Source: Paramyrothecium sp. XJ0827 | Taxonomy: Eukaryota; Ascomycota; Sordariomycetes; Hypocreales; Stachybotryaceae | NCBI GenBank assembly: GCA_020881915.1 | Contig: JAJFPB010000013.1 | Location: forward strand, 62,001 to 126,000 | Reading direction: 5' to 3' | DNA length: 64,000 bases | Shown here: piece after piece, positions 28,311-62,086 of the stretch | Layout of the letters: each line of letters begins with the position of its first letter | Position numbering within the stretch: position 1 is the first letter of the stretch | Position numbers and translations under genes: made by a program | The notes under the pieces: model-generated | Told to the model about the DNA's origin: nothing | Databases searched by the model: none | Seen by the model: only the letters and a program-made list of their open reading frames with translations

Positions 28311-30170
28311 ACGTACATACATAACGAGTGGGCCAACATAACGAGTGGGCCATAAATCCCTCATCCTACATCTCAATCAATTGATCAAATGATTCACCAT
28401 AACTAGCCATGACAAACTCAATTAATGAGACTAATCTCAATCTTGCTCTTCAGGCTCTTCAGAGGGACCCAAAAATAAGCCTGCGACGTGCTGCAGCTAT
28501 CTACAATATCCCCCGTCAAACATTAACTCGCCGTCAGCAAGGCGTATCTTCTCGACGCGATACTATGCCTAATCTACGTAAACTATCTGATCTTGAGGAA
28601 CAGATGATAGTTCAATATATTCTTGACTTAGATCTGCGAGGATTTTCTCCCCGGCTTCGTGGTGTTGAAGATATGGCTAATCGACTACTTGCTGAGCGAG
28701 AGATGCCTCCTGTTGGGCCACGCTGGGCCTCGAATTTTATTAAGCGGCAACCAGAGCTCAAGACGCGTTTCTTTCGCAGATATGACTACCAGAGAGCCAA
28801 ATGCGAAGATCCAATCGCGATAAACGCGTGGTTCTCGCTCGTGGAGAACATAATCGCGAAGTACGGCATAAGATCAGATGATCAGTACAACTTTGATGAG
28901 ACTGGCTTTATGATGGGCGTTATTACGAGCGGCATGGTTGTTACAGGCGCAGAGAGGCGTGCAAACCCTAAAAAGGTCCAGCCTGGGAACCGCGAATGGG
29001 TCACAGCGATTGAATCGATCAATGCTGAAGGGTGGGCGCTGCCGCCGTTCATCATTGTTGCAGGCCAATATCATCTCTCGAGCTGGTATCGGGAAAGTAA
29101 CCTCCCGGCCGATTGGGCTATTGCAACTACAAAAAATGGCTGGACCGATAACGAGATAGGCCTCGAGTGGCTAAAGCACTTCAATCGGCATACAATCAAA
29201 AGATCAAATGGTGCCTATCGTCTTCTAATCCTTGACGGGCATGAGAGCCACCATTCGGTCGCATTTGAGGATTTCTGCAAGGAGAATAAGATTATTACGC
29301 TCTGTATGCCGCCTCATTCATCTCATCTACTCCAGCCGCTAGATGTGGGCTGCTTTGGGCCGCTCAAGAAGGCTTATGGTCGAGAAATAGAGCATTTGAT
29401 CAAATGCTCTATAACACACATTTCCAAGACCGAGTTCTTTCCCGCCTTCTACGCTGCACACCGAGCCACTATGACCAAATCGAATATTCAGGGAGGCTTT
29501 AAGGGCCCCGGACTTGCTCCTTTAGATGCGAACCATGTGATCTTAAAGCTTGATATCCGGTTACGAACTCCAACGCCTGCTATTGATGAGCCTGAGCTGC
29601 CTGCCCCTTGGACTTCAAGGACTCCAAAGACAGTTAGGGAAACAGAATATCAATCTGAATATTTAAGAAGACGAATCAGGAGACATAAGAGTAGCTCTCC
29701 AGCATCAATTATTGAGGCCCTGAACTCATTCTCTAAGAGTTTACTTGCAAATCAGCATAAGATGGCATTACTAGAGGCTGAGGTCCGCGATCTTCGAGAG
29801 GCAAATGAGATACTAAGCCGGCGCCGGAGAGAAAAAAAGAAACGCCTACGCAATGGAGGGACAATGACTATAGGGGAAGGTCAGGTATCGATTGATCAAT
29901 TGGATGTAGATACGCAGGTAGTAGCTGAATCGTCGAGGCGAGGTGGTCAAGGAAGATCGGGGCAGCCGACCCAGCGGCGATGTGGTGTATGCGGCAAGCC
30001 CGGCCACAATGCACGAACATGCAAGATAGAGGTAGAGGTCTCTGGGCAAGAGTATAGCGATTAGTTTTAATTGATCAGATGGTCTATGGTGTTTTAATTG
30101 AGGTTCCTTTCTCGAGGGTTGAGATTTATGGCCCACTCGTTATGTTGGCCCACTCGTTATGTATGTACGT
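28311..30170 (+). mobile_element. Fot/pogo-like element A, complete
   Basis: The element is 1,860 bp, flanked by TA at 28,309-28,310 and 30,171-30,172. The terminal inverted repeats are perfect over more than 40 bp. They start ACGTACATAC and contain two tandem copies of ATAACGAGTGGGCC separated by AAC. The only gene (28,409-30,064) is open. Ends, target duplication and gene are all intact, so this copy may be autonomous. A 32-bp remnant of the same terminal type survives at 62,188. Confidence 0.92.
28409..30064 (+). CDS. Fot/pogo-type transposase A, intact (551 aa)
   Basis: The N-terminus carries a helix-turn-helix of the pogo/CENP-B type. In it RRAAAIYNIPRQTLTRRQQG (about residues 26-45) contains the predicted recognition helix. 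A second DNA-binding helix set is followed by SNFIKRQPELKTRFFRRYDY. The catalytic DDD triad is visible: D163 in YNFDETGF, D276 in LILDGHESHH and D312 in LLQPLDVGCFGPLKKAYGRE. A basic coiled-coil stretch (EANEILSRRRREKKKR) and a C-terminal CCHC knuckle (CGVCGKPGHNARTC) end the protein. The enzyme would cut and paste its element into TA sites. No intron or frameshift. Confidence 0.93.
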   Translation: MTNSINETNLNLALQALQRDPKISLRRAAAIYNIPRQTLTRRQQGVSSRRDTMPNLRKLSDLEEQMIVQYILDLDLRGFSPRLRGVEDMANRLLAEREMPPVGPRWASNFIKRQPELKTRFFRRYDYQRAKCEDPIAINAWFSLVENIIAKYGIRSDDQYNFDETGFMMGVITSGMVVTGAERRANPKKVQPGNREWVTAIESINAEGWALPPFIIVAGQYHLSSWYRESNLPADWAIATTKNGWTDNEIGLEWLKHFNRHTIKRSNGAYRLLILDGHESHHSVAFEDFCKENKIITLCMPPHSSHLLQPLDVGCFGPLKKAYGREIEHLIKCSITHISKTEFFPAFYAAHRATMTKSNIQGGFKGPGLAPLDANHVILKLDIRLRTPTPAIDEPELPAPWTSRTPKTVRETEYQSEYLRRRIRRHKSSSPASIIEALNSFSKSLLANQHKMALLEAEVRDLREANEILSRRRREKKKRLRNGGTMTIGEGQVSIDQLDVDTQVVAESSRRGGQGRSGQPTQRRCGVCGKPGHNARTCKIEVEVSGQEYSD

Positions 30171-30219
30171 TAATCACCTTACAATATAGGCTAGAGAAAC
30201 TAAAAAACCTCCACCTGCA

Positions 30220-31233
30220 CTACCTAAACAGTGCTAACAGGCGGTCGACTGTTTTGGAGAATAATCTCACAAACAAAACAAAAACTAGGTCATTACCAAA
30301 CTCAATCGTCCCAATCCAAATTAGTACAGACAGCAGGATAAATCCAATCAGACCTATCAAGTTTATGTTTTTGTGACTTGCGACGTGGGACTTGATATGC
30401 CTGCATGCATCTTGTAAACCTCTTCTCTCTAATTCATTATATGCCTTCGGCAAGTCATAGGCCATGCCCTGTGCGACTCCAATTACGTCAAGTTGCAACG
30501 TCGCAAGTTTGACCTGGAAAAGCCTTTTGACCTCCGACATCCAGTGGTCAGGCCCAACAGGCCCAGCTAGAATGTGCTCCATCCTAGATATCCGGAAATG
30601 TTCCGTCGGCTTGGCGTAAGCCTGTTGATAGTAGCGAGGAATCGCCATAGACAAATTCAACAGTGTAACACTATCAGTGATCCAAGGCTTGTTCCATTCT
30701 GGCTTGAGAAGTTCGCTGTCGTCAGAGTGATCCGGATACCATGTGGCCCCAGTGCGAGGATGCCTGATGGCGAAGGAACTGGTACAGGCGAGAATGGTGT
30801 GTCTTTGGAGGTGATTGAATGACACTTGCCCAAAATTGGATTGCAAGCCGGCCGTTATTGTGGCAGGAAAGATCGGGTCGTCGCTAGGATTGGCGTACAG
30901 TGTATTGGAGCCAATGAGGAAAATCCAAGTCAGCGCGTTTGGAACCTGAAATTCCTTTCTCACCTTCCGCTGGCCAACCGTTGTCTCGAGTTTATCCCAT
31001 CCTTCAGGAGGAAAAAGTCTGGGATTAATAAAATGAGTGAGCCACAACATGGACTAAATGGGAAGAAGGAGACTTACTTGATATCGTGGCTTCTCCTCCT
31101 AAAAAGTTGTTGCCTGATGTGGTCCTTCGTCATCTCAGGGAAAGTCGTAGACATGGTCAAGTTTGAATCGCCCGTATCCCAAGGCATGAAATTGCCAAAA
31201 TAGTAAGAAACATTGCGAGACCCAGGCTCTCGC
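30220..31233 (-). pseudogene. 5'-truncated gene for a membrane-anchored hypothetical protein
   Basis: The structure is complement(join(30220..31018,31078..31233)), with an intron at 31,019-31,077 (GTAAGT...CCCAG, 59 nt) joining NVSYYFGNFMPWDTGDSN... to LFPPEGWDKLETTVGQRK. The C-terminal region has a hydrophobic segment (INLIGLIGFILLSVLIWIG) and a second one (LVFVLFVRLF), so the protein is a likely tail-anchored or two-pass membrane protein. The coding frame runs straight into the left end of hAT-1 copy 2 at 31,234, so the gene's 5' part is gone. Family unknown; conserved tryptophans and prolines suggest a real ancestral gene. Confidence 0.6.
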
Positions 31234-32698
31234 CAGTGAAGTAAATAGTGTGGCCGTAAATAAGACAATATCATATTCAATATCGTATTGCCTGCACGGT
31301 ATTTTTATACCGTGCAGTGCAAGCAACACCGGAAACCGTGCAATACAGTGCATGGTCGTTCAAATATCGTATAAATATGATATCAAATATAGTGCAAGTA
31401 CTATGTAATACGAGTAGTACGAGGATTCTCCCCATATATGAAGCATTATGAAGATCCCAATTTACAGGACTTTTTACTAACGAAGTGTAACCTGGTTGAT
31501 CTGCACTCGGTTGATGCCGATAGTAATAACGCCACCAAATAAAGGCCTCGTCACAAACTCCTGAGTGTTTGAGTGAGTATGTAACAAGCTCGCCAGCCTC
31601 TCCGAGAGCTTTCAGTTCTTCTTTTCTTCAATGCAATCAATTTGTTGGTTTCCAAGCATGCTTCTGGACGAATAAGGCCTATGCCCCTGACATGAAGCGT
31701 GTCAGCTCCTGAACTTTTCCCTACTTCCTCAACAAGTCTTATCCTACGAAATAATGGCTTCTCAGCGCTCAGGCATTAGCGCTTCCTTCACGGCTACATC
31801 ATCCCAGACTTCCCTAGCCCCTGGTTCGTCGGTTATCAGCGACAACGGAGATTCTGATGTCGGAGAGACATCTATTTCGCCGTTGTTAACCTCTCAACTT
31901 AAGAAGAAGAAGCGTACGTCGAAGATATGGGATCATACGCCCTTCGGAAGGAATCAGATCGTCCGTAATACGGAAGGTCAGATTATATGGCGTTGCAAGT
32001 ACTGTAAAGGGAAGCCTGCCGAATATCTCGAAAATGGAGGCACGGCACACATCTACAAGCACCTTAAATCTCACACTACTCTCGATATATTAACGCCTAA
32101 TGAAGAAAGGGCTGCTAAAACAAGGAATCACCTTGTGGAAGCCTTCTCACGGATGTCTCAGAACACGAATCCCCTCAAACGCCGTCGACACGATGACGAA
32201 ACGACAGATCTTGACGCTGATAAGTTTGAGCAACTGTATGTAGAGTGGATTGCAGACTGCGGGATTGCACTTCGTATAGCAACAAGAGAAAGCTTTCGAG
32301 CGTAAGTGCTCTAATACACTTAATATTAATGGTTCATATACTAATCTTATGCCATTTTAGCTTGCTCAAATTCCTCAATCCTGGAGTCCTCTCGATTTTA
32401 CCTACATCACATCAAACGATTCGCGAGTGGGTGATGCGAACGTTTGAGACGCAAAAGCGACGTATACGACAAGTTCTCCAATCAGCTATCTCGAGAATAC
32501 ACTTCACCGTCGATATATGGTCCTCTCCAAATAAGCTTGGTATCCTTGGTATTGTTGCACACGTCATTGACAGCAACGGCGAGCTGGTTTCATATTGTGT
32601 CGCTTTACGAGAGGTACACGGCAAGCATTCAGGAGAGATCAGGCCCATATTGTGATGAATGTCGTCGAGGACTACGGAATTGTCACCCAGATTGGATA
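31234..32698 (+). mobile_element. hAT-1 copy 2, left part only
   Basis: It starts with the same CAGTGAAGTAAATAGTG end as copy 1 and is almost identical to it for 1.46 kb. It stops at the TA (32,697-32,698) where Fot-like element B is inserted. The corresponding right half is not found on the other side of B. The 26-bp hairpin at 31,292-31,317 has its loop inverted relative to copy 1. Confidence 0.9.
31754..32698 (+). pseudogene. hAT-1 transposase, copy 2, truncated
   Basis: The first exon (31,754-32,301) is open and longer than in copy 1, because the two bases lost there are present here. It includes the BED finger (WRCKYCKGK...HLKSH). The 59-nt intron (32,302-32,360) is conserved. The second exon encodes LLKFLNPGVLSILPTSHQTI and HFTVDIWSSPNKLGI, where the first catalytic Asp lies. 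One base is missing near 32,637 (GAGATCAGG against GAGAATCAGG), and the frame is then cut by element B. The C-terminal half is absent. Confidence 0.85.
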
Positions 32699-32796
32699 AC
32701 GTACATGATAAGCGAGTGCACCAACCAAGCGAGTGCACCAAAAATTACTCAATCTCTCCTCTTTACATCTAATCAACTATTTCTCAACCACCAAAT

Positions 32797-34450
32797 ATGT
32801 CACAATCAAATAATGAAGCTAATATGCTTCTCGCTCTTCGGGCCCTTCAAAATGACCCGAAACTGGGTCTACGACCCGCCGCAAGATTATACCAGGTGGA
32901 TTATTATGCCCTTCGTCGCCGACAGAGGGGCATCCAGTCTCGGCGCGATACCATCCCCAACTCACGGAGACTATCCGATCTAGAGGAGCAGATTATTGTC
33001 CAGTTCATTCTCGACCTGGATTCGCGAGGATTTCCCCGCGACTGCGTGGTGTTGAAGAAATGGCCAACCGACTGCTCGCTGACCGCGACGCGTCACCTGT
33101 CGGCAAGCGCTGGGCTTCCAACTTCGTCAGGCGACAACCAGAGCTCAAGACGCGTTTTTTCGTAAATATGACTATCAGAGGGCTAAATGCGAAGATCCAA
33201 CCATTATTCGCAATTGGTTCCGGCTCGTGGAGAACACAATCGCGAAATATGGCATCGACCTAGCCGATATCTACAACTTTGATGAGACCGGCTTTATGAT
33301 GGGCATAATTGCAAGCGGAATGGTCGTCACAGGTGCAGATAGGCGTGGAAACCCGAAATCAGTCCAGCCTGGAAACCGGGAATGGGTTACAGTCATTCAG
33401 GCGATTAATGCCGAAGGCTGGGCGATCGCGCCGTTCATCGTGGTCGCGGGCCAATATCACCTCGCCAGCTGGTACCAGGAAAGCAACCTTCCGGGCGACT
33501 GGGCTATTGCGACAACTCAAAATGGTTGGACCGACAATGAGACCGGCCTTGAGTGGCTAAAACACTTTGACCGGCATACCAAGGCCCGATCAACCGGTCG
33601 CTATCGTCTTCTGATCCTCGATGGGCATGGAAGTCACCACTCGGTTGACTTTGAGAAATATTGTGAAGATAACCATATCATTACGCTGTGTATGCCGCCT
33701 CATTCGTCTCACCTACTTCAGCCTCTTGATGTCGGGTGCTTTGGGCCACTCAAAAAGGCATACGGTCGAGAAATAGAGCATCTGATCAGGTGCTCTATAA
33801 CCCACGTTTCTAAGACTGAGTTCTTTCTGGCATTTTACGCCGCCCACCAAGCCGCCATAATAGAAATTAATATCAAAGGGGGTTTTAGAGGGGCCGGGCT
33901 TGTTCCTTTAGACCCAGAAAGTGTCATATCGAAGCTTGACGTGCAGGTACGAACTCCAACACCGATTGAGGAGGAGGCCGGCCTCCCCGACCCTTGGGTG
34001 CCCAAGACGCCAAAGACGGTCCTTGAGGGCTACCTCTCAATCTGAATACCTTGAAAGACGAGTCAGAAGGCACCAGGAAGCTCCCCAGCATCTATTGTTG
34101 ATGCGCTTAAGTCATTTTCTAAGGGAACGAAGGCGATAATGCATCAAATAGCATTATTAAAGTCTGAGAACCAGATCCTTCGACAGGCAAATGAGACTCT
34201 TAGCAAGCGGCGTAGGGCAAAAAGAACCCGGCTACAGAATGGAGGGAAGATGACTATAGGTGAGGGAAGGGATGAGATTGATCAGAGAGACGTTGATGCG
34301 CAGATAATGGCTGGATTGTTGAGAAGTGGTGGTCGAGGGAGGTCAGCACTGGCGAGAGAAAGGCGCTGTAGAACCTGTGGAAATACCGGACATAATTCAA
34401 GAACATGTCAGATAGTTGTGTTAGTATCTGAAGAAGACGATAGTGATTAA
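32797..34450 (+). pseudogene. Fot/pogo-type transposase B, three frameshifts
   Basis: The start is MSQSNNEANMLLALRALQ, with helix-turn-helix LRPAARLYQVDYYALRRRQR. Relative to paralogues there are three single-base indels: near 33,038 (GGATTTCCCCGCGACTGC), near 33,161 (one T missing from the RFFRKYDY codons) and near 34,030 (one extra G at GAGGGCTACC). Between them the catalytic motifs survive: YNFDETGFMMG, LILDGHGSHHS and LLQPLDVGCFGPLKKAYG. The final frame ends with the CCHC knuckle CRTCGNTGHNSRTC and stops at 34,448-34,450. Not functional as read. Confidence 0.88.
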
Positions 34451-34731
34451 TTTTAATTGATTAGATGTTTTGTAGTGATTTTAAGTAATGTTCTATTTTA
34501 ATGGTGTGAATTTTTGGTGCACTCGCTTGGTTGGTGCACTCGCTTATCGATGGTGCCCGCAATTGCGTCGTAATCCGCTTAGACCACGTGACCACTTATC
34601 GCCCGCAAAACGCGGCACGTGAAATCCGTGAAATCGTGTGCGCGACGCCTGATAAGTGCATTTGATAAGTCCCCCCCGACTTATCAGGGCCTCCAGCCTA
34701 CCCACCACATAGAAGGCCCCGATCCACTGAG

Positions 34732-37222: not shown

Positions 37223-37275
37223 GGAGGAGGCGGACCGCCCTCGTCGACGGTAAGCCAGCTGTCTAGTAGGGTCTT

Positions 37276-37305
37276 TATATATATATATATATCTATATCT
37301 ATTTA
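37276..37305. repeat. AT-rich microsatellite (TA)n/(TATC)n in the Crypton 3' region
   Basis: About ten TA units followed by CTATATCTAT lie just downstream of the recombinase stop. It contrasts with the GC-rich coding part and may serve as an easily melted or polyadenylation-related region. Confidence 0.6.
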
Positions 37306-37395
37306 GAAGATGTATTTTTAATGATTAAAGAGCCGTAGAATTAGTGCATTGTTATGTCGTAGTCCTTGTAGCAGAGTCTACCCCTATCCCTTCCC

Positions 37396-37544: not shown

Positions 37545-37650
37545 GAACACTTATCAGGTGGTAGTTGTGTAATCGCATACGATTTCCCGAAATTACTCCG
37601 CAAAACGACCCCACGATAAGTTCTGCTTATCATGTACGTTATTATATTGG

Positions 37651-39320: not shown

Positions 39321-39322
39321 TA

Positions 39323-40047
39323 ACGTGTATGATAAGCGAGCGCGCAATACAAGCGAGCGCGCACTTTTCTCCTCAACCACCTAATTATATCTTTCAACTT
39401 AATTTTCTCAACCATAAATCATGTTATCATCAATCAATGAGGCAAATATTAATCTCGCCCTTCAAGCCCTTAAGAAAAACCCTCAATTAACTCCCTTTCG
39501 CGCTTCAAAGATCTACAAAGTCTCCCGCCGCACCCTAGAACGCCGACGCGATGGCATTCCTACCCGACGCGATATTATGCCTAATTCGCGGAAACTATCT
39601 GATCTAGAGGAACAGACTCTTGTTGAGTATATCCTTGACCTAGATTCCCGAGGATTTCCCCCGCGGCTTAGTGATGTGGAAGAAATGGCCAACCGACTCC
39701 TTGCTGACCGCGACGCGTCACCTGTTGGCAAGCGCTGGGCTTCCAACTTCGTCAAGCGACAACTAGAGCTCACGACGCGTTTTAATCGTAAATATGATTA
39801 TCAGAGAGCTAAATGCGAAGATCCGGCTACTATTCGCAAGTGGTTCTCACTCGTAGAGAACGTAATCACGAAATATGGTATTACCCTAGCCGATATCTAT
39901 AACTTTGATGAGACTGGCTTTTTAATGGGCATGATCGCAAGCGGTATGGTTGTTACGGGCGCAGAAAGGCGTGGAAGACGGAAATCAGTCCAGCCTGGAA
40001 ACCGGGAATGGGTTACAGTCATCCAGGCTATCAATGCGGAAGGCTGG
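39323..40047 (+). mobile_element. Fot/pogo-like element C, left part only
   Basis: It follows TA at 39,321-39,322 and begins ACGTGTATGATAAGCGAGCG, with two copies of AAGCGAGCGCGCA in the terminal region. It ends at about 40,047, where Copia 3' sequence starts. The right terminal repeat is absent. Confidence 0.85.
39421..40047 (+). pseudogene. Fot/pogo-type transposase C, truncated after the first catalytic Asp
   Basis: The frame starts MLSSINEANINLALQALKKN and keeps the helix-turn-helix (SKIYKVSRRTLERRRDG) and YNFDETGFLMG. It reads to AINAEGW, then runs into Copia repeat sequence and stops at 40,188 after about 47 foreign residues. The second and third catalytic Asp and the zinc knuckle are missing. 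Confidence 0.85.
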
Positions 40048-46776: not shown

Positions 46777-46778
46777 TA

Positions 46779-48613
46779 ACGTGCATGATAAGCGAACGCT
46801 CCAGATAAGCGAACGCTCCAAAAATCTCAACCCTTACAATAGAAACCTCAATAAAAACACAACGAACCAATTGGTCAATTGAAACTAATCGCTATACTCT
46901 TGTCTAGAGACCTCTATCTCTGCCTTGCATGTTCGTGCATTATGCCCTGTCTTGCCGCAAATGCCACAGCGCCTCGGCCTCGATTGCAATGACCTCCCTT
47001 GACCACCTCTTCTCGACGATTCGGCCACTATCTGACTATCTACCTCAATTTGATCAATTGATGCCTGACCTTCGTCTATAGTCATCGTCCCTCCATTACG
47101 TAGGCGTTTCTTTTTTTCCCTCCGGCGCCGGCTTAGTATTGCATTTGCCTCTCGAAGATCCTTAACCTCTGACTCTAATAGAGCCATCCTATAGATAATT
47201 GCCTTCGTTCCCTTAGAAAAAGACTTCAATGCCTCAACAATTGATGCTGGAGAGCTGCTCTTATGTCTTTTAATTCGCCTCTCAATGAATTCAGATTGAG
47301 ATTCTGCCTCAAGGGCTGTCTTTGGGGTCTGCGGAACCCAAAAGGCAGGAAGAGCTGGCTCACCCACTGGCGGCGTTGGAGTTCGTAACTGAATATCAAG
47401 CTTTGAGATCACATGGTCCGCACATAAAGGAATAAGCCCGGCCCCTTGGAAGCCTCCTTTGATATTTTTTTCCGTCATAGTGGCTTGGTGTGCGGCATAA
47501 AACGCCGGGAAGAACTCAGTCTTAGAAACGTGTGTTATAGAGCATTTGATTAATTGCTCTATTTCTCGCCCATATGCCTTTTTGAGCGGCCCAAAGCATC
47601 CTACATCAAGTGGCTGGAGTAGACGAGATGAATGAGGTGGCATGCATAGCGTAATGATGTTATTCTCCTTGCAATATTCCTCAAAAGCAACTGAATGGTG
47701 GCTCTCATGCCCGTCAAGGACCAGAAGACGATAGGCACCATTTGATCTTTTGATTGTATATTGATTGAAGTGCTTTAGCCACTGGAAGCCCGTCTCGCTA
47801 TCGGTCCAGCCATTCTTGGTGGTTGCAATAGCCCAATCGCCCGGGAGGTTGCTTTCTCGATACCAGCTAGAGAGGTGATATTGGCCTGCAACGAAGATGA
47901 ATGGCGGCAGCGCCCACCCTTCAGCATTGATCGATTGAATCGTAGTAACCCATTCACGGTTTCCGGGCTGAACCTTTTTAGGGTTTGCACGCCTTTCTGT
48001 GCCTGTAAGAACCATACCGCTTGCAATAACGCCCATCATAAAGCCTGTCTCATCAAAGTTGTATATATCATTTGATCTTATGCCGTACTTCGCGATTGTG
48101 TTCGCCATAAGCAAAAACCACGCATTTATAATAGCTTGATCTTCGCATTTGGCTCTTTGATAGTCATACCTGCGAAAGAAACGCGTCTTAAGCTCTGGTT
48201 GCCGCCTGATAAAGTTTGAAGCCCAGCGTTGCCCAACTGGAGGCATATTGCGTTCAGCAAGCAGTCGATTGGCCATATCTTCAACACCACAAAGCCGGGG
48301 GGAAAACCCTCGTGTATCCAGGTCAAGGATATATTGGACTATTGTCTGTTCCTCAAGATCAGATAGTTTACGCGAATTGGCTATATTCGGGACTGTATGC
48401 CCTGTTGCCGGCGCTGCAGTGTACAGCGATAGATATTATAGATAGTTGCAGCGCGTCGCAAGCTTAATTTTGGGTCTTTTTGAAGGGCTTGAAGTGCAAG
48501 AAGGATATTTGCTTCATTGTTTAAGGTAGACATGCCTAGTTGTTGTGAATCAATTGATCTTTGGATGATGATGTAGGATGAGGGATTAGTGGAGCGTTCG
48601 CTTATCATATCGT
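46779..48613 (-). mobile_element. Fot/pogo-like element D
   Basis: It is flanked by TA at 46,777-46,778 and 48,614-48,615 and is 1,835 bp long. The left terminal region has two copies of AAGCGAACGCTCC (ACGTGCATGATAAGCGAACG...). The right end, read inward, is ACGATATGATAAGCGAACGC and has only one copy. The gene is on the minus strand. Confidence 0.9.
46885..48533 (-). pseudogene. Fot/pogo-type transposase D, N-terminal frameshift
   Basis: The start at 48,533 reads MSTLNNEANILLALQALQKD with helix-turn-helix RRAATIYNIYRCTLQRRQQG. After QSR about seven bases are missing compared with paralogues (near 48,395), giving TAG. From there the long frame to 46,885 is open and holds YNFDETGFMMG, LVLDGHESHHS, LLQPLDVGCFGPLKKAYG and the knuckle CGICGKTGHNARTC. 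The catalytic part is separated from the DNA-binding part, so the element is probably not autonomous. Confidence 0.88.
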
Positions 48614-51053: not shown

Positions 51054-51069
51054 TTCTATCCACGCCGCC

Positions 51070-51660: not shown

Positions 51661-53135
51661 AGTCCGTAGACATGAGACGGATAGCCGCCAAGCTCATGTC
51701 ATGCTTTCACCACCCACCTAGATCATTAAGGGGGACCATCGTCGTGCCCCATCGTCGGCCCCGGCGTCCCCACCCCGAGGCCGAGGTTTTCTTGCCTCGC
51801 CCATCGCAGAAGCGCCCCCCCCCCCCGCCCCCCCCCACACCCAACCCCCGGATCCCTGAACCATTACACACAAGCTAGAATTAAGGGGCTTTCGAACTGT
51901 TTGACATGCCCCTTGCCGGCGCCTTGTTCTTCTGACTAGCGCGCCAATGCGGGTGTCAGGTGGCGTGGAGCTTCTATCGTTCCTATAGGAATGGTTCAAC
52001 GGCCCATGCATGGCCAGCCCAGCACGGGATTTCTCCTCTTTGCTTGCCTCTGTCTCTGCATCTCCATGCTGAACTATGAAGGCTCGTCGTACCTGCCGTG
52101 CGTGAGGAGGAACAGCGACTAGTGAGTGGATCTTGGCACGCATCGGGACGGTGCCGCGGCATGGCAGATTGGCCAATGGCCGGGGGCATCACCTTCAGGG
52201 GCAACCTGTGAATTCAGGCGATGTGCATCTTCGAGTTATTCGCAAATAATCCCCCCCTAACACAATGTTGGGAATTGAGCTGGCAGAGATGGCGGCGTGA
52301 GTGCGCGACGGTCTGAACCACACAACTGGGAGGCGGTCAAATACGGGTGGACAAGTGTTCCGGGTGATTTCGGATGGCGTGGTATTACTGCAGATCGGTC
52401 ATATTATCACCGCCGCCCCTTGGAGGAGATCGTATGGGTAGCACCAGACCCGGCGGTTGGGCCCTGGCGCCAGACTGCCCGTCTCAAAGGGATCCTCAAC
52501 TCGGGGGGTCTAAATCAGTCAACCCTCCCAACCTAGTGGAACCCCCCGGAGTACCCTGTATGGTGCCCCGGGTGTACTAGGGAGGAATAGTGGAGGAGAT
52601 AAGGGCCACAAAGCAAGCAGGGGATCTCCAGGAGCATTAACCTTGGCCAAGGGATATTGCTTAAACTCGGAAAGCGTTCGACCAATGGGGGGCGAGATCC
52701 ACGCTGTAGCAAGGGTGGACGCGGCTCTCGCCCCCCATTTGGTTGGTCGCAGAGAATGGGCTTGGGGAAACGAGGACGAAAATCAGGCATTGTGTGTACG
52801 CATCAGTGACTAGTGCCCTCTCGGCCTGAACAGGCTGCCGGGCGTAATAAATTGCATTGTATTGGTTGGTTTGGTGGCTGACAGCTTCCATTGTGATTTG
52901 GCGACCGCCGGACGTGGCGTTATAAGCGATGACTGAAGGAGAGCTGAAGAGCGGGACAGGGTCCTGAGCGACATGTAGATGAATTTGGTCCCCAAAGTTG
53001 AAGTTAAAACATCTCGGATGACCGACAATGGACTGGGATTGTCATTTTGTGGCGGCTTTGTTATCCCTCTGACAAAACAGCGACCATAAACACGACTCTA
53101 CACAGGACTACGAAATATCGGACGAGCCAGGAAAG
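51661..53135. other. Non-coding, with poly-C tracts and a GC-rich inverted repeat
   Basis: Uninterrupted C runs occur at about 51,815-51,840. An inverted repeat lies at 52,681-52,697 (ACCAATGGGGGGCGAGA) and about 52,726-52,746 (complement with one extra T). Frames here are low-complexity artefacts. The part from about 52,900 is presumably promoter and leader of the MHYT gene. Confidence 0.45.
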
Positions 53136-56001
53136 ATGTCGACCGCCAACCAATCGATGGACCGGGTACAGGGGAAACGGTCCCCTATTCGTTCAATGTT
53201 GGATTCGTGATTTTGAGCTACGCCATCAGCGCGCTTGGCGCCGGCTCGACCCTCGAACTGATCCGCCGGCGAACCTCCCTTAAGGGAACGTATAATCTGT
53301 GGGGTTTCTCTCCGTCACTCTCATGTCAAACAGGAAGCCGGCTAACCGTCTTATCCTGTAGTCTCTTGCTCGGGGGGGCCGCGATATCGATGCAAGGGAT
53401 TGCAATATGGTCCATGGTTAGACCTCGCCACCACGTCAGGACTCTTTGGAGCCTTTCCAGCTGATCAACCTCGCAGCAGTTCATCGCAAACCGGGCGATT
53501 ACCCTGTTGAATGGAGAGCCGGATTTGCAAATTGTCTACTCGGTTCGCACCACTGTTGCATCGTTTTTCGTACCAATCTTCGTTCTGCTCGTTGCGTTTC
53601 TCGCGGTCAATATCAACGAAGACATCCGATGGTGGCGCGTCTGTCTGGCGGGCTTGCTCTCAGGCGGTGCCATCTGCGGCATGCACTACCTCGGCGATGC
53701 GTCCATCAGCAACTACCGCTGCAGTTACAACATTGCTAACGTCGTCGGCGCGGCCGTCATTGCCCCTTCGGCTAGCACAGCAGCTCTGTCTCTTCTTCGT
53801 CTTCACGAACGCCTGGACCGACTCGACCCTGAGGAGAATTGGTTGCGCCTTCATCCTCGCCGGCGCCGTGTCTGGGATGCACTGGTGTGCGGCCTTGGGG
53901 ACAAGATACACGTTACGACATGTGCACATTTCCACTCATGGCGAGACTTCGAGGGATACGACGGTCATAGCAGTCATCTGCCTGGTTAGTCGACGAAACC
54001 ATACAGTCATCAGAGTTCCTTCTCTGCTAACACAATGCTAGTCCGTTGTCGCGTCTTGTATCATAATCACCACCGCCATTTGTACCGCGCGGACGAGGAA
54101 ACGATATGCTGCAAAGTCACAGCAGATTGTCGTGGCGGCCGCAGTGTTCGACGATCAGGGTAGGATCCTTGTCAACCCAGATGGCCTACTGCCCAGCCAG
54201 ATGATCACGGAGGTGTTTCCGCAAAAGTCAGTGGACGATATCTTCAGCACGGCCCATCCCCAATTCCACTGGATGTACAGGGCGTCACGAAATTGGTCAA
54301 ATGTTGCGACCCTGCTCGACTGGATGAAGACGCACCTTGAACCCCTCCCTCAGGGTGGCAGACGTGGCATGGGGTCCACCAAACTGGTCCAGGAGAATGG
54401 CCAACTCGTCGAAAATTACGACATGAAATTTCGCGAGCTGTTCTGTATTGCTGCGTCCACGCTGTCAGCCCGGATGGGCGAGGGCCTCGCCAACGCCGGA
54501 GCGCTCTGGGACGAGATTTTCGCCACAGGCACTAGCAGCGAACCACGGCCGCTCACCCGGCTTGGGCCAACGACCGATGAGATTGTTAACCCTAATGGCC
54601 CGGATGCCAGTGTGGGACCAAAGGCTGAAGAGACCCAAGACCAAGACGTTCTGCTCGAGACAGGGTTGAGGCCGAGCCAAGACCTGAGTGGTCGAGGGTC
54701 TCTTCTATTCTTGGTGCGGCATGTGAGTGCATCCCATGAGGTCGCCAAACTTGAAGCTTCCGGGTTCCGGTTCGCCGAGCCGCGCCGTGTTGTAGACATC
54801 ATCCGATCGAGCATGCAGATCAGGACACAGCGGCTTGAGGGAAGACTCCTCGACATGGCCACCTACACGGAGAGCAGGGCCACAGTCGAGCCGGGAGTCC
54901 ATCTTGGCGTGTTTGCTCTACGCGCCCGGGTGGACCGATTCGGATTCGACGTCTTGGTCAACAGAAATTCGCGGAACACCCTCCCGACAGTCATGCTACC
55001 TGTGAAGAAGCTTCAGCAGTGGCACCACGACTTTCTCCTAGACCTCGATAGCCAGCCCGTGCCCACGCTCCTTCGACGGCTGGAGCTCATGAATGACCCC
55101 CAGCCGCTTAAGGCCCAGTTCGCTGCCCAGCTGCGAGGGGCCATCTCCGCCCTGGGGAACGAGATCGATAGCCACGTGTACGAAGAGGCGTCACTTTCGG
55201 CTAGGGTCGTCCAGATACCGTGCAGGGCGCTCGACAGCTCCTCATCAGGCTCAAGCACTTGCCCGCTTATCACCCTGCAGGTGATTCTCAATATCAACGC
55301 CACCGTGCGCGGCCGGTCCTGGACATTTGTGCCGCTACAGTTCTTGAAGGTGCGTCAACTGGTGTATGAAAACTCGCCGCACCATGCCGTGTTCGGCCGC
55401 GCCCTGCACCGTGAGATGTCCACCATTCTGTCGTCCCTACCACCTGTGTCGGTCAAGAGATCAGGCATCGACGCCATGCCCCACCACAGCTCGTCAACTC
55501 TTGCCCTATGCAACAGTAGCTCCAACAGCAGCACGTCTAACGACGAGCTCGGCATAACTGAGAACTCGCGCAATGACTGTGGACAGACAAGGCAGCTCGA
55601 ACCTCCATCATTCCCATATCAACAAGCTGGAGCCCGGCCGTCCTCATCGACACAGGCACAGCCGTCTCCGTTTGGAGGGATCATGGTGTCGCGGGAGATA
55701 GTAGTGGACGTGCAGGACGCCAACCAGGAGAACACATCATCCCTCGCGGGGCTGTTGGCGTCCCGCCCCAGTTCAGCCGGGAGAAGCCAGCGCACAGCGC
55801 GCGTCTTGGCATTGGAGACCCGTAGCGTTTCTAGGCGGTCTAAGCCGGACCGGTCAATCGAGATGGAGCAGTTTACCCGCGCCATGTTAGCTGTCGGTTG
55901 CATCCCGGAGGGGCGGATGGAATGTGGAGGCGGCCGCGAGCGAGGAGGAGACAACGTTCCTCGATGAGCTTTTCGCGACGTGCGTCAAGAGGCGGCCTTA
56001 G
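53136..56001 (+). pseudogene. MHYT-domain sensor protein, several frameshifts
   Basis: Exons are 53,136-53,298, 53,362-53,416, 53,477-53,984 and 54,042-56,001. Their introns have GT...AG ends and good branch sites (GCTAACCG; GCTAACAC). The N-terminal part has repeated membrane segments (FNVGFVILSYAISALG, VFLLVAFLAV-like, VVGAAVIAPS) and MHYT-type motifs MHYLGDASISNYRC and MHWCAALGTRYTL. The long hydrophilic C-terminus starts VVAAAVFDDQGRILVNPDG and contains DIFSTAHPQFHWMYRASRNW. MHYT domains are proposed to sense gases through metal bound by the Met/His residues. In the first repeat the expected MHFIGN reads MQFIAN. Single-base shifts near the start, near 53,787 and near 55,930 break the frame. 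With them resolved the end would be DELFATCVKRRP at 56,001. Confidence 0.75.
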
Positions 56002-56716
56002 ATAACCGCATTCTTCTGCAATTGATATACGGGCTTAACCACTTTTACCCAGATCGCGCCTTACACAGGGCTGTATGGGGGTCTGTTGCCCCCCCCACGA
56101 AAGGCGGTGAGGGCACCTACACGGCACTACCGTATTATCTCAAAAAACTCGTACCTGGATGGGGAGCCGCTGGTGGGCCAGATCCGCACACACTCTTTCT
56201 AACTAGTAACCAAAACAGGAATGCCATCCAACCTCATTCCTCCACCGCACACTGCATTGAAGCTATCAAAATGCCGCAAACTGCTGATATAGGCTTTATT
56301 GATGGGGTTTGTGCGTAGCTACTATGCTGCTGTAGCCTAGGGACATAGATACAGCTAATTTCTTAGCAGTTGTGACTAACGACTACCAAAATGAAGGTCT
56401 TTTCGAGGTCGACAAGACCTACTGACTTGAATACAGGAAGCACTCGTCCCCAGGTGTTCTGACTGAGATTTCTCTAGCAAATGAAGGCATCCACCACGGC
56501 TGGGTGAGGGAAAGGAGTCGTAAGGCCATTAATAACGCCCTTTAGCGTAGAAAGGCCCCATTTTGTAGAGTCGAAGCCCGGGGGAGCTGATACAGGCGTT
56601 TTGATGAGAGATTGAAGATCCAACGAACTTGGTATGAAGCACGGCATTTTTCTGGTCAGAAGATCAGGAAAAGAAAGAGATGATAGAAGACGTTGATTCC
56701 TAGCTCATGACTTCCC
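56002..56716. other. Intergenic, no gene seen
   Basis: Only a 112-codon frame without features (55,980-56,318) overlaps this stretch. Nothing else is recognised up to the TA of Fot-like element E. Confidence 0.45.
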
Positions 56717-56718
56717 TA

Positions 56719-57404
56719 ACGTACACCACAAGCGAAAGTCACAACTAAGCGAAAGTCACAAAAATCTCTCAACCTACAACCTACCAATTCAATCAACCAA
56801 TTCTCAACAAATCAACATGCCACAGCGAAATGATGAAGCTAATATTATTCTTGCCCTTCAAGCCCTTCAAAAAGACCCAAAATTAAAAGTCGGGCGCGCT
56901 GCATCAATCTACCAAGTCTGCAGACAAAAGCTGGGCCGCCGTCACCGAGGCACACCATCTCGACACAATATTATAGCCAATTCCCGTAAAATATCTGATC
57001 TTGAGGAACAGACGATAGTTCAGTATATCCTTGACCTGGATTCACGAGGATTTTCTCCCCGGCTTCGTGGCGTTGAAGATATGGCTAATCGCTTACTTGC
57101 TGAGCGCGACGCGCCTCCCGTTGGAACACATTGGGCTTCCAGCTTCGTTAGGCGGCAACCACAGCTCAAGACGCATTTATTTCGCAGATATGACTACCAG
57201 AGAGCTAAATGCGAAGATCCAGTCGTAATAAACGCGGGCATAATGCACGAACATGTAAGGCAGATATTCCAGCCTCTGGAGATAAGTATAGAGATTAATT
57301 TGAATTGATTTTAAGGTCTGCTGTGTTTTGATTGAAGTTCTTATTTGAAGGGTTGAGATTTTTGTGACTTTCGCTTAGTTGTGACTTTCGCTTGTGGTGT
57401 ACGT
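56719..57404 (+). mobile_element. Fot/pogo-like element E, internally deleted
   Basis: It is 686 bp, flanked by TA at 56,717-56,718 and 57,405-57,406. Terminal repeats start ACGTACACCACAAGCGAAAG and hold two copies of AAGCGAAAGTCAC at each end, in good agreement. Relative to the 1,860-bp members about 1.2 kb of the catalytic region is missing. Ends and target site are intact, so it could be moved by a compatible transposase. Confidence 0.9.
56817..57308 (+). CDS. DNA-binding-only Fot transposase derivative (163 aa)
   Basis: The open frame starts MPQRNDEANIILALQALQKD, keeps the helix-turn-helix (GRAASIYQVCRQKLGRRHRG) and continues to CEDPVVINAG. There the deletion joins it, in a different frame, to the sequence that encodes the zinc knuckle in full-length copies; the remaining residues (IMHEHVRQIFQPLE) are therefore novel. 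All three catalytic Asp residues are absent. A protein that binds terminal repeats but cannot cut could act as a repressor, as known for some P-element deletion products; this is inference. Confidence 0.7.
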   Translation: MPQRNDEANIILALQALQKDPKLKVGRAASIYQVCRQKLGRRHRGTPSRHNIIANSRKISDLEEQTIVQYILDLDSRGFSPRLRGVEDMANRLLAERDAPPVGTHWASSFVRRQPQLKTHLFRRYDYQRAKCEDPVVINAGIMHEHVRQIFQPLEISIEINLN

Positions 57405-57460
57405 TAACAGCCTCGAGAACATCGGATGTCCTCCGAGCGTATCTGCCAACCACTATCCAG

Positions 57461-59923
57461 TCAGGGATTGTTCCATTGTCCCTGTCCCTCACTTGCTCTA
57501 CCTACTTGTTTTGTGGTATTCTCGCTAGCTGGGAGGGTATCGTCATCCACAGCTGGCTTTGCTACATTTGCGACCACGAACTCTGGTCGGAACTTCCGGA
57601 TTGTGTCCGTAAAGGACAAACTACCTCCCTGCAAAACGAGACCGCCGCCAATTTGCCCACTGCTTGCGTGGCTCAATATGTTGGCCTCGTCCAAAACAAT
57701 GGCAAAGTCGGTTTTCAGACAACCCGCCATCAAATATGCTGTTGCTGCGCTGGGTAGACTAGTCTCTCTGCGCTCTGTTATGGTTCTCAGACTGAGAAGA
57801 GACTGGTTTGCAACCGGCATGTGCAGGCCCATCGCGTGTAGCAACATGCATGACTTGATTGACATATCCCCGTCAGTTCGATCTGGACTAAGATATGACA
57901 TGAGCATTTGGGCAGCCAAGGAGCATGCTTGTAGGTGCCAGCCATCGTGCCGCATGCCAAAAGCCGTGCGGTAGTTCCACAACATCGAGAGAACGGATTC
58001 ACAATGAAGTGCGATAAGTGACCGAGCTGAGCGACCACGATCGAAGTCGAGAAAAGAGAGGTGGACAAATGGCTCTAGAAGCCTCAATGCGAGAACGTCG
58101 GCCGTTATACTACGTTTATTGTGTTATGTTAGCTCACGACCAAAATGCTTGTGTAGGAATCACCCCTATGCTAGAGTCGGTGACACGGCTAGTCCCCGTA
58201 GCCTCCTTCACCATTACTCACCTGAGAGACACCAACGTTGGGTTGGATGATTGCTCTGTGGTCGTTCCACGGGGCGATGTCCGCCTCCAACCACTGATTT
58301 GATCGTAGAGCTGTATCGCTAAGCGACAATCTGGCATTGGGGAGGCGGAATTGTTTACAACTTCCAGGATAATAGCTCCGCCAAGGAGACTCAGTTGCGC
58401 CTCGCTGGAGTGAGTCTCCATGAAGTATGATAGTCGAGGAGGATGGGGTGTGATTGGATATGGGATCCATAAGTTCACGCTGTTGTCGTCGACAGCATGC
58501 CAGGCGTCTGAGCCAAAATCCATAGGGAGGCGGGGCCTAAGAATTTGTGTGGTAGAGTTGAAGCTGAGCCAGAGTTTCCTGTGAGAAATCAAGGTTAGTC
58601 ATTTCTCTATACTCTTTGGCCAACGGAAGGTGATGAGAACACTGCTCGATAGGGGTCACCTCCACATACAAATCGAGAAAATAGAAACCCCATGACGCGT
58701 ACGACAAGGCTTGTTTTTCCCTTTTTGCTCGGTAGTGCTGCGAGCAGTGGCGTTCAAACAGCTACTGATCGGCACTGGCAGTGAATTCCAGTAGCCTTTT
58801 GTCGCGAGTTGGGAATGAAGGCTCAAGAGCTCGTCGAGCAACTGGCTTGCGCTTTGTGATTTGCCAGACAGATGTTCGTACATCCATAGCGCTGTCATAC
58901 CCTGAAGAAGTGCTAGAGTGGGTTGAGCCCTGTCCAGGTTCAAGATACTCATGGCTTCTTCGGCAAAGGCGTGGCCTGACAGCTGCCTAGGTTCGAGGTC
59001 ACCATCGTTCGAATTGGCATGTAACTGAGTCTGATTAGCCGAGCCATAGCCGAGAGATTAGAAGGGAGAGAAAGTTGACAATAGGAAGGAGGTCAGTTCA
59101 AGAATTAGACTTGACACAAACGTACTGTGGCCACAGCAAGGAGAGCATTGACGAGAAATCGGGAGCAGAACTGGACCTCGCTATGATTTCTTGTGCCGGC
59201 TTCTTGGGATGCGGTAGAGCAAATGTGCTCGTGAAGCACCCCCGATGGATTATTTTCGTTAGAGTTGTGTCCCATGTCCATAACACATTCAATAGGTTCA
59301 GCATGGCTTCGTCATCATTGCTGACCCTTGTCCACTGCGAGAGTGGAAGCGCGAACCGGCCATGGGTACTGACAGGCGGAGGAGCCAGACTTGAGGCCAC
59401 TCCGTCGACGATGTGCGAAAATCCTGGCCCCAATGCATTATCCGTATCTCGCGTAGCCCTGAGCTTCTGTAGCACGTTAATGGAATCATTTAGAGTGCCC
59501 TCTCTAAGTGAGCCAACGATATTACGCAAGCCCTGGTTTGCTGCTTCTAATTCTCGATTTGTCTGCGGACGAGACTGATAATGGCATCTTTCATTTTTGC
59601 GGGCGCAGGACCGACAGACAGGCTTACCACCATTGCACTAAACAGGTATCTTGCATTAGCTGTTATGGTAAGTGAGACGAATGCGAGCATTAATTTCAGA
59701 AATTCAAACCTTGATCTTGCGCTCCCGGCAACCTATTCGGCGCAGAAGCTATTAGTGGATCTGGAAGTCAATGTCTATCTGTCACCATGGGGAACTTACG
59801 GTCGCAAGCGGTCGCGGTCAGTTCCCTTTTGCGGACAGTTGCTCCCTCAAGAGCAGGATCACTCTGAGCTTGCTGTACGGCGGGAGGCTTCGATTGTATG
59901 GGACGATAAGTATGGGGATCCAT
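57461..59923 (-). pseudogene. Zn2Cys6 transcription factor with a 23-nt micro-exon and one frameshift
   Basis: Exons on the minus strand are 59,800-59,923, 59,710-59,732, 59,122-59,637, 58,625-59,030, 58,222-58,578 and 57,461-58,109. The first three build a perfect binuclear zinc cluster, CDRCRERKIKC followed by NGGKPVCRSCARKNERCHYQ, with the middle piece supplied by a 23-nt exon. Later exons match the fungal-specific middle homology region (LNLLNVLWTWDTTLTKIIHR, SYASWGFYFLDLYVEVTPIE, LRPRLPMDFGSDAW, LRLLEPFVHLSFLDFDRGRS). Exon 4 is one base short near 58,765, where KGYWNSLP passes into another frame before LFERHCSQHYRAKREKQALS. With that base the protein would be about 691 residues, normal for the family. 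Start ATG 59,923 (MDPHTYRPIQSK). It may be a true pseudogene or a sequence error in an active gene. Confidence 0.8.
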
Positions 59924-60226
59924 TGATCCCAAATGCAGTATTCGAAATGGTTCGATTAAGCTCTACGGGCAAGATCAAACGGACGCAGCTGGAGTGCTGA
60001 GTTGGGGGTTGGAAGAGCTAAAGTGGCATGTATTAGGCTTCAAGAATATGATGTATCATCTTAAAAGTAGAATGGTCGAAATATTGCACTTGTTGAGCTT
60101 GAGAGTTGCTTAGTCACTTCCATACACAAATGCACACTCATTGGGCGGGATCAACGTGGCTCCTAAGAATTTGCAAGGCTTCTTGGACGCTAGCCTCACC
60201 ATCTCGGATTGATTGAATAAACAGTA

Positions 60227-62086
60227 ACGTACATGATAAGCGAGCCGCCCAGACAAGCGAACCGCCCAAAAATCCCTCAATCTACATCATCATCATTTGA
60301 TCAAATAGTTTACCACAACTAAACATGTCAAACTCAAATAATGAGGCAAATATTACTCTTGCACTTCAAGCCCTTCAAACTACACCAAAACTAAGCATCC
60401 GACGCGCTGCAACGATCTACAATGTCAAATGGAGTACCCTCCGTGATCGGAAGAAGGGTACTCAATCACGACGCGATATTATGGCCAATTCGCGTAAACT
60501 ATCGGATCTTGAGGAACAGACGATAGTTCAGTATGTCCTCGATCTAGACACGCGAGGATTTCCACCCCGGCTCTGTGGTGTTGAAGAAATGGCCAATCGA
60601 CTGCTTGCTGAATGCGACGCGCCTCCTGTTGGGCAACGCTGGGCCTCAAACTTCGTCAAGCGGCAGCCAGAGCTTCAAACGCGTTTTTTTCGCAGATATG
60701 ACTACCGGAGAGCCAAATGCGAAGATCCAATCGCGATAAACGCGTGGTTTTCGCTTGTACAGAACACAATCGCGAAGTATGGCATTCAATCAAATGATCT
60801 ATATAACTTTGATGAGATTGGCTTTATGATGGGCATCATTGCAAACGGCATGGTTGTTACAGGTGCAGAAAAGCGTCATAACCCTAAAAAGGTCCAGCCT
60901 GGAAACCGAGAATGGGTTACTGCAATTCAATCGATTAATGTTGAAGGGTGGGCGCTACCGCCGTTCATCATTGTTGCGGGCAAATATCATCTCTCTAGTT
61001 GGTATCAAGAAAGCAACCTCCCGGGCGATTGGGCTATTGCAACAACAAAAAATGGCTGGACAGACAATGAGACAGGGCTCGAGTGGATAAAGCACTTCAA
61101 TCGGCATACAATCAGCAGATCGAATGGTGCCTATCGTCTTCTGATCCTCGATGGGCATGAAAGTCACCATTCGGTTGCCTTTGAGGATTTCTGCAAGGAG
61201 AACAAGATCATTACACTCTGTATGCCGCCTCATTCATCTCATCTACTCCAGCCTCTTGATGTGGCCTGCTTTGGGCCGCTTAAGAAGGCTTATGGTCGAG
61301 AAATAGAGCATTTGATCAAATGCTCTATAACATACATCTCGAAGACTGAGTTCTTTCCAGCCTTCTATGCTGCACACCAAGCCACTATGACAAAGAAGAA
61401 TATCCAGGGAGGATTTAGAGGGGCTGGACTTGCTCCTCTAGATGCAAACCATGTGATCTCAAAGCTTGATATCCAGCTACGAACTCCAACACCTCCTGAG
61501 GGATCCCCTGACCTTCCTGACCCTTGGGTTTCAAAGACCCCTAAGACAGTCAGAGAGACTGAATCTCAGTCTGAATATCTCGAAAAACGAATCAGAAAAC
61601 ATAATAGTAGCTCCCCAGCATCAATAATTGAGGCTATGAAGTCAATGACCAAGGGTTTAAAGGCACATCAGTATGAGATGGCATTATTGAGGGCTGAGGT
61701 TAAGGAGCTTCGAGAGGCAAATCACATACTTAGTCGACGCCGCAGAGAGAAAAAGTCCCGCTTACGCAATAGAGGGATGATAACAATAGAGGAAGGTCAG
61801 GCATTAATTGATCAAATGGATGTGAATAGCCAGATAGTGGCTGAATCATCGAGGAGAGGTGGTCGAGGAAGATCAGTACAACCGAGGGAAAGGCGCTGTG
61901 GTGTATGCGGTAAGCCTGGGCATAATGCACGAACATGTAAGGTAGAGGTAGAGGTATCTGGGCAAGAGTATAGCGATTAGTTTTAATTGATCAAATGATC
62001 TGTTGTGTTTTTATTAATGTTCTTGTCTTGAAGGTTAAGATTTTTGGGCGGTTCGCTTGTCTGGGCGGCTCGCTTATCATACACGT
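60227..62086 (+). mobile_element. Fot/pogo-like element F, complete
   Basis: It is 1,860 bp with TA at 60,225-60,226 and 62,087-62,088. Inverted terminal repeats begin ACGTACATGATAAGCGAGCC (left) and ACGTGTATGATAAGCGAGCC (right). Each carries two motif copies, AAGCGAGCCGCCC and AAGCGAACCGCCC. Only two bases differ between the ends near the tip. The gene is open. Confidence 0.92.
60325..61980 (+). CDS. Fot/pogo-type transposase F, intact (551 aa)
   Basis: Same length and layout as transposase A. The helix-turn-helix differs in its recognition helix (RRAATIYNVKWSTLRDRKKG). The catalytic triad is D163 in YNFDEIGFMMG (Ile replaces the usual Thr after Glu), D276 in LILDGHESHHS and D312 in LLQPLDVACFGPLKKAYG. 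A basic helix (EANHILSRRRREKKSR) and the CCHC knuckle CGVCGKPGHNARTC complete the protein. It would act in trans only on elements with its own terminal motif if specificity follows the recognition helix. No frameshift. Confidence 0.92.
   Translation: MSNSNNEANITLALQALQTTPKLSIRRAATIYNVKWSTLRDRKKGTQSRRDIMANSRKLSDLEEQTIVQYVLDLDTRGFPPRLCGVEEMANRLLAECDAPPVGQRWASNFVKRQPELQTRFFRRYDYRRAKCEDPIAINAWFSLVQNTIAKYGIQSNDLYNFDEIGFMMGIIANGMVVTGAEKRHNPKKVQPGNREWVTAIQSINVEGWALPPFIIVAGKYHLSSWYQESNLPGDWAIATTKNGWTDNETGLEWIKHFNRHTISRSNGAYRLLILDGHESHHSVAFEDFCKENKIITLCMPPHSSHLLQPLDVACFGPLKKAYGREIEHLIKCSITYISKTEFFPAFYAAHQATMTKKNIQGGFRGAGLAPLDANHVISKLDIQLRTPTPPEGSPDLPDPWVSKTPKTVRETESQSEYLEKRIRKHNSSSPASIIEAMKSMTKGLKAHQYEMALLRAEVKELREANHILSRRRREKKSRLRNRGMITIEEGQALIDQMDVNSQIVAESSRRGGRGRSVQPRERRCGVCGKPGHNARTCKVEVEVSGQEYSD

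Follow-up and report, generated by a model that had tools for sequence, protein, structure and literature searches.

How a transposon changes the sequence that its transposase recognizes, when the protein and several end sites must change jointly, is an open problem. It is raised by a 64,000-nucleotide stretch of the Paramyrothecium sp. XJ0827 genome (contig 4, positions 62001-126000; genome 51.8 Mb in 15 contigs), hereafter the window, which carries six related transposons, elements A to F, with differing end motifs. The more than 20 natural cases in this one genome make the problem testable. The elements belong to a known kind, namely Fot5-like, pogo-type Tc1-mariner transposons. From the comparisons below, we consider it probable that the predicted DNA-reading residues and the end sites of this family co-evolve. 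Coupled divergence of transposase and end site is the best explanation of these sequence data because the covariation survives controls, sits at the predicted DNA-reading residues, and usually reaches the far end of the element.

Each end is laid out as TA, the tip ACGT, a core, a 7-bp motif, four bases, and a second core and motif, with a tandem spacing of 17 bp. A first-pass annotation of the window had listed the ACGT tip after TA, the 17-bp spacing, six motifs and six strings of the predicted recognition helix, all of which are present as stated. It had also called the motif tandem in nearly every end; the spacing was confirmed, but the left end of element D (at its high coordinates) has a single motif and no tip. 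Element A (window 28309-30172, + strand) is intact and TA-bounded, with perfect 50-nt ends (TA included) bearing the core TAACGA and the motif GTGGGCC twice per end. Its left tandem block (28322-28351, +), a putative binding site, reads core, motif, 4-nt spacer, core, motif. The transposase (28409-30064, +; 551 aa) has a Psq-type helix-turn-helix (HTH) unit followed by a Tc5/CENP-B-type unit (HTH_psq, PF05225, residues 7-45; HTH_Tnp_Tc5, PF03221, residues 62-120) and a DDE_1 domain (residues 195-364). Codons 35-41 (P R Q T L T R; 28511-28531, +) overlap a helix that an AlphaFold model places at residues 36-43, with a mean pLDDT (predicted local distance difference test) of 80.6. A PDB sequence search matched no chain at E 0.001, giving only weak zinc-knuckle and chance matches.

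For comparison across the genome, we took 133 N-terminal matches in 124 sequences together with their upstream DNA and picked 39 representatives, of which 33, each with a helix and a left motif, were used as lineages. Decayed matches were left out of this set, as were L041 (left end of another line), L045 (left end not found), S069, S112 and S059 (duplicates of used lineages), and L013 (a PFSS-line variant with TTGGATC). Where tandem copies differed, the first was taken, except in S072 (the second, with the core set by hand). The motif register of L036, L039, S097 and S113, which have non-standard cores, was set by eye, and these were dropped from the core tests (29 of 33 kept). The distance from the start of the inner two-unit block to the ATG is 86-88 bases in intact left ends, except in L043 (97 bases; decayed start). 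The 33 lineages hold 23 different 7-bp motifs and 28 different pairs of helix tetrad (residues 35-38) and motif.

Variability is concentrated at the predicted helix. Across the 33 lineages, residue 37, with 13 residue types, tops the variability ranking of all 551 sites and residue 36 comes 8th; mean entropy is 2.34 bits at residues 35-38 vs 0.58 in the DDE domain. The same was seen in 117 homologues taken from the best 120 of 3907, where residues 37, 35, 30, 36 and 40 rank 1st, 2nd, 3rd, 5th and 6th of 551, residue 41 only 119th, and 58 different helix tetrads occur. Positive selection was not shown, as the nonsynonymous/synonymous ratio is below 1 at the helix codons; by a crude method it is 0.74 there against 0.39 in the rest of the first 76 codons, with silent differences also higher at the helix. 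The earlier claim that the helix changes while the rest stays fixed is borne out only in part: residue 37 fits it, but other sites vary as well, identities to the A transposase are 63-81%, bodies are mosaic with blocks swapped between lineages, and the core changes with residue 56.

Motif distance between lineages was unrelated to backbone distance (r -0.08). With the backbone held fixed, residues 35-38 followed the motif with a correlation of 0.279. In 2000 label permutations this value was never reached, nor was it by any of 2000 random quartets of variable sites drawn from outside residues 30-44 (maximum 0.19). Among 331 single sites, residue 37 ranked 1st, 35 2nd, 41 4th, 30 6th and 40 11th. 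Since the left end lies near the helix codons, local silent and amino-acid differences were also held fixed. For the other codons among the first 76, the motif correlated at -0.09 with silent differences and at -0.06 with amino-acid differences. With backbone, local silent and local amino-acid distances all fixed, six helix residues (35-38, 40 and 41) gave a partial r of 0.37 (0 of 5000 permutations reach it), and one row per helix/motif pair (n=28) gave 0.29 (0 of 5000). When the motif was predicted from the lineage with the nearest helix, 1.30 of 7 bases were mismatched, compared with 2.76 for the nearest backbone and 3.20 for a random lineage. The helix-motif covariation proposed for genome copies thus holds in 33 lineages and survives control for overall and local similarity. 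Five additional elements agree with earlier helix/motif pairs, bar one motif copy: L134 (SRFT/ACGCTCC, one motif copy), L135 and L138 (SRRT/GCGCGCA), L137 (SWET/GCCGCCC), and L136 (PRKT), whose first copy reads GTGGCCC and whose second, disagreeing copy reads GTGGGCC. The genome search for new lineages gave only more copies of known lineages among those fetched.

To localize the signal, every variable site was scanned against every motif column (322 sites for the motif, 305 for the core). Motif base 3 was best matched by residue 41 (z 5.5, runner-up 3.5) and motif base 4 by residue 37 (z 3.3, runner-up 2.8). Asp41 goes with C at base 3 in 3/3 lineages, and C at this base is confined to them; Arg41 goes with G in 23/23; and Asn41 goes with G in four lineages and T in one. 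For instance, the tetrad PRQT is common to element A, which has R41 and G at base 3, and L012, which has N41 and T there. Tyr, Phe or Arg at residue 37 accompanies C at base 4 in 8/8 lineages, and Asp or Glu at residue 36 accompanies G at base 6 in 3/3 and nowhere else. Counts were also made over copies with an intact second core (104 of 128 rows), where copies of the same lineage are not independent: R41/G 56, D41/C 17, N41/G 14, N41/T 10, H41/G 5, C41/A 1, and D41/G 1, the last being L041 with its exchanged left end. Arg-G and Asp/Glu-C contacts are chemically sensible in protein-DNA recognition. Judged by the sequence comparisons, core base 3 (see below) and motif base 3 have strong support and base 4 has moderate support; that for bases 2 and 6 is suggestive. 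In F, the PFSS line, SRFT of S049 and DFST, motif base 1 (G/A) is the sole difference between the tandem copies of an end, suggesting that the transposase barely reads this base.

The core varies separately from the motif. Its types (AAGCGA, TAACGA and TAGCGA) are unrelated to motif (r -0.03) and backbone (0.02), but core base 3 goes with residue 56 of the linker that joins the two HTH units: Leu56 occurs in 9/9 TAACGA lineages and Ser56 in 19/20 others, the only non-Ser being decayed D, with Ile. For core base 3, residue 56 ranked first of 305 sites (z 19.2, next 6.3). The 104 copies divide into 31 A/Leu, 71 G/Ser and two others, namely L034, where a one-codon shift is the cause, and D. Among the 117 homologues of other species, 113 have Ser at this site. 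In element A, codon 56 (28574-28576, +) encodes Leu and pairs with TAACGA. The first-pass annotation had given this core as AACGA; aligned in register, TAACGA vs AAGCGA is a substitution that tracks Leu vs Ser at residue 56, and a missing base was rejected. The core that residue 56 follows may thus belong to the functional site of a single domain, which would then comprise the motif, the 4-nt spacer and the inner core, a 17-bp unit resembling a CENP-B box.

Do both ends of an element follow the same rule? The right end lies ~1.6 kb from the helix codons. It was legible at the usual distance in 22 of the 33 representatives (somewhat nearer in S053), and left and right motifs agree in 18 of these lineages. 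A further 20 right ends belong to elements with a known left end; 17 are legible and all 17 match, in nine lineages. Among 100 ends listed there are 28 element pairs, of which 21 match and 7 do not, against a shuffled mean of 2.6 matches (maximum 11); of the non-matching pairs, one shows a single-base difference and another has probably been wrongly paired. Two further cases were not scored as motif mismatches: L036 has two odd ends past the usual right-end position, and the ends of S112 have the same motif and different cores. In many elements the nearest relative shifts along the gene, and this mosaicism together with chimeric ends makes recombination between lines likely. Recombination would leave backbone and motif unrelated, as found, but does not explain the agreement of helix and motif.

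Several results weigh against coupled divergence or limit it. True mismatched chimeras make up five of the 28 end pairs (L021, L025, L034, L038 and L041). Among the representatives, mismatched ends occur in 4/22 lineages (L021, L025, L038 and S052), S052 being a sixth chimera and the motif counterpart of L021. Judged by concordant relatives, the helix pairs with the left end in L021, L034 and S052 and with the right end in L041. The pairwise test ranks residue 36 only 15th and residue 38 71st of 331, while the 3rd and 5th places go to sites 252 and 550, which lie outside the domain. Residues 30, 33, 40 and 44 of the first HTH, taken as a set, reach 0.256, near the value for residues 35-38; we therefore place the signal in the first HTH, strongest at 37 and 35, rather than in four residues alone. 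Helix sites lead in none of motif columns 1, 2, 5, 6 and 7: residue 36 comes 5th in column 2 and, although its pairing with base 6 makes chemical sense, 8th in column 6, and column 1 has residue 38 in 6th place and residue 35 in 8th. A one-residue rule for every motif column was not upheld. The code is also not one-to-one: PRQT and SHTT each occur with two motifs, and ACGCTCC, GCCGCCC, GCGACGC, GTGGACC and GTGGATC each with two tetrads, the paired helices of GTGGACC and GCGACGC differing at 4/6 residues. When relatives closer than a backbone distance of 0.2 were excluded, prediction from the helix rose to 2.71 mismatches (backbone 3.14, random 3.19), and beyond 0.3 its advantage was gone (2.80 vs 2.73). 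This shrinkage implies a rule that holds among moderately related lineages, not a universal cipher. Trees of residues 44-130, built for 25/33 lineages (eight with frame differences in the first 130 codons were omitted), put the Leu56 type mostly in one group, with S052 nested in it yet carrying both Ser56 and a G core, so the residue 56 changes may represent perhaps about three independent events. Lastly, the DNA side of the comparison comes from one genome.

Could helix and motif be mere lineage markers, drifting and inherited together? The left end lies within ~200 bp of the helix codons, copies of a lineage share both, and some other first-HTH residues (30, 33, 40 and 44 as a set) follow the motif too. 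Against this, the tests used one row per lineage, motif distance is unrelated to backbone, silent or amino-acid distance, the helix signal stays with all three fixed, and the right end usually matches as well. Pure lineage marking or local linkage was rejected on the backbone and local-distance controls, and we hold this account to be very unlikely. An exchange of ready-made cassettes, each a left end with its DNA-reading block, under no selection for matching, would fit the shifting relatives, the chimeric ends and the grouping of the Leu56 type. Linked neutral sites should then travel too, but the neighbouring codons, taken together, are unrelated to the motif; matched right ends would be unexplained, and S052 within the Leu56 group has Ser56 and a G core. 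This makes cassette exchange by itself quite unlikely. As for a motif set by a host factor or by mutation bias at the ends, RIP-like decayed copies are present; a motif so set would not follow transposase residues, and differences such as GTGGGCC vs GTTGGCC are not C-to-T changes. We regard that origin as extremely improbable.

A different matter is whether coupled divergence, if real, has isolated the lines. Cross-binding or cross-mobilization might persist, with matching an affair of affinity, as the mismatched chimeras (L021, L025, L034, L038, L041 and S052), the base 1 differences between tandem copies (F, PFSS, SRFT and DFST) and the G or T at base 3 of Asn41 lineages would allow; the matching of all 17 further right ends speaks against it, and we rate it as rather unlikely. 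The lines may instead be mutually non-cross-reacting, as the first-pass annotation suggested, without cross-mobilization. The proposal that the family splits by joint change of helix and motif is thus upheld in that the two diverge together, but the rest of the protein is exchanged and chimeras exist.

Under coupled divergence, each transposase would find its own ends through its bipartite DNA-binding domain, with residues 41, 37 and 56 predicted to touch motif base 3, motif base 4 and core base 3. Changes at these residues would redirect the transposase and the end motifs would then change to match, leaving lines at least partly separate in what they mobilize. Recombination would exchange body segments between lines, and where it joined a left end and the adjacent DNA-reading block to a body with another right end, the resulting mismatched chimera would probably be immobile until its ends were equal again. 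The likely advantage, which may account for the strong diversification, would be escape from titration or parasitism by copies that are internally deleted or decayed yet bind the same transposase. More tentatively, and with somewhat less than even confidence, the genome may hold a library of more than 20 orthogonal transposase/end pairs on one scaffold, written in a readable two-module code reshuffled by recombination. The same tentative grade covers, jointly with this reading, its two modules, in which residues 36, 37 and 41 would read the 7-bp half and linker residue 56 the core, the 17-bp site suggested above, and an origin of lines by exchange of the reading block followed by correction of the ends.

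Membership in the Fot5-like group rests on several features. The annotated Fot5 transposase of Fusarium mundagurra (P0092) is 68% identical over its whole length and stands among the best 120 of 3907 homologues, whose named proteins are mostly from Fusarium. PF03184 (DDE_1) scores 112.8 bits in A and 100 in F, over the curated cut-off, and the HTH order of A recurs in F (PF05225 at 7-47, PF03221 at 62-117). Both elements have short terminal inverted repeats with TA on both sides (100% in A, 96% in F), and between the ends of each there is one open reading frame (ORF) among those of at least 150 aa considered, the transposase. The end pattern of tip plus tandem core has 157 + 156 = 313 genome matches and the reversed pattern 0 + 0; DDE_1 has at least 150 genome matches above the cut-off. 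Contigs 2 and 4 (3.2 of 51.8 Mb) hold 71 of the 146 stretches that cover the transposase matches listed, in two lists of up to 150 matches each. Many near-identical copies over several contigs suggest recent movement. Stops are numerous in L009, L094, L100 and L115, along with G-to-A or C-to-T-like changes, the pattern expected of repeat-induced point mutation (RIP). Two distant families (L002/L119, and the second matches of L044 and L048) lack such ends and were excluded. By tblastn no relative was found in the viral and prokaryote collections searched. The end pattern gave 3 stretches in the viral collection, and a narrower pattern (AAGCGA cores only) gave 25 in 257 billion bases of prokaryote contigs, where ~30 are reckoned by chance.

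Among known systems, the Fot elements of Fusarium share the identity to P0092, the Pfam domains of the listed homologues and the TA-flanked short inverted ends. The accessible sections of one account report pogo elements on lineage-specific chromosomes (PMC3599309), much as the elements here crowd on particular contigs, and in such sections of the Fot accounts examined neither covariation of end motif and residue nor a residue-base code appears. Animal Tigger/pogo elements likewise belong to the pogo group with an HTH and a CENP-B-like domain, and a comparable spread of end motifs in one genome was not seen in the sections consulted (PMC7325037). In the Arabidopsis VANDAL elements, as described in the accessible parts of two papers, the VANC protein and short tandem target motifs diverge jointly into distinct specificities; VANC is an anti-silencing protein, and those papers left the specificity-setting regions to future studies (PMC5735166, PMC10398659). 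By analogy, and as far as those parts go, this joint divergence is the closest known principle, an element's own protein and tandem motifs diverging together as was found here; the present family differs in that the transposase itself is the protein concerned, the element's own ends hold the sites, and candidate residues can be named.

CENP-B reads one site, whereas many sites are predicted to be read here; no PDB chain, CENP-B included, matches the sequence at E 0.001. A literature search, with most subscription journals outside its scope, found no transposase residue-base code and no account of so many end motifs in one genome. The family may offer a naturally evolved code for the specificity of a CENP-B/pogo-type domain, and its residue-base predictions can be falsified. 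For instance, P0092 of F. mundagurra, with the helix SYGS, R41 and S56, is predicted to have ends near AAGCGA-GTGGACC, the type seen in L015.

Returning to the window, the motifs and helices of all six elements are real, but only A and F, both intact and 1.86 kb long, combine an intact 551-aa ORF with both ends. Element F (60225-62088, +) carries GCCGCCC then ACCGCCC in each end, and its transposase (60325-61980, +; 551 aa; 81% identical to that of A by tblastn) has the helix KWST with D41 (codons 35-41, K W S T L R D, 60427-60447, +). Element B (32697-34548, +) is frameshifted and has no right tip, with motif GTGCACC and helix DYYA (codons 35-41, 32899-32919, +; 63-80% in three pieces). Element C (39321-40047, +) is a left end only, truncated past residue 209, with motif GCGCGCA and helix SRRT (codons 35-41, 39523-39543, +; 69% over 209 aa). 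Element D (46777-48606, - strand) is frameshifted, with motif ACGCTCC and helix YRCT (codons 35-41, 48411-48431, -; 69% and 81% in two pieces). Element E (56717-57406, +) is a 690-bp internally deleted derivative with perfectly matched 52-nt ends, motif AAGTCAC and helix CRQK (codons 35-41, 56919-56939, +; 70% over 135 aa).

The C-terminal end of the transposase is a CCHC zinc knuckle (C-x2-C-x4-H-x4-C), present in A (29981-30022, +), D and F (61897-61938, +), which weakly matches retroviral nucleocapsid chains (E 0.26 or worse). A solitary A-type left end with tip, core, motif, spacer and the start of the second core (62186-62219, +) sits 98 bases past the right end of F, and a lone motif-less tip with AAGC at 37641 (-) is probably the remnant of another element end. 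Elsewhere in the genome, L034, L041, L062 and L069 have three tandem 17-bp units at the left end, where related copies have two. The ends C2:193373 (ATGTAAC) and C2:1789862 (ACGACAC) bear motifs with no matching transposase among the lineages read. L121 (C2:318259-318696) and L122 (C2:396025-396207) are short non-autonomous elements with family ends. The outer motifs of L122, which is 183 bp long, are one base apart (GCGGTCA/GCGATCA), and its matching transposase is likewise not among the lineages read. With the residue-base pairs, annotators could pair orphan ends and miniature inverted-repeat transposable elements with their transposase.

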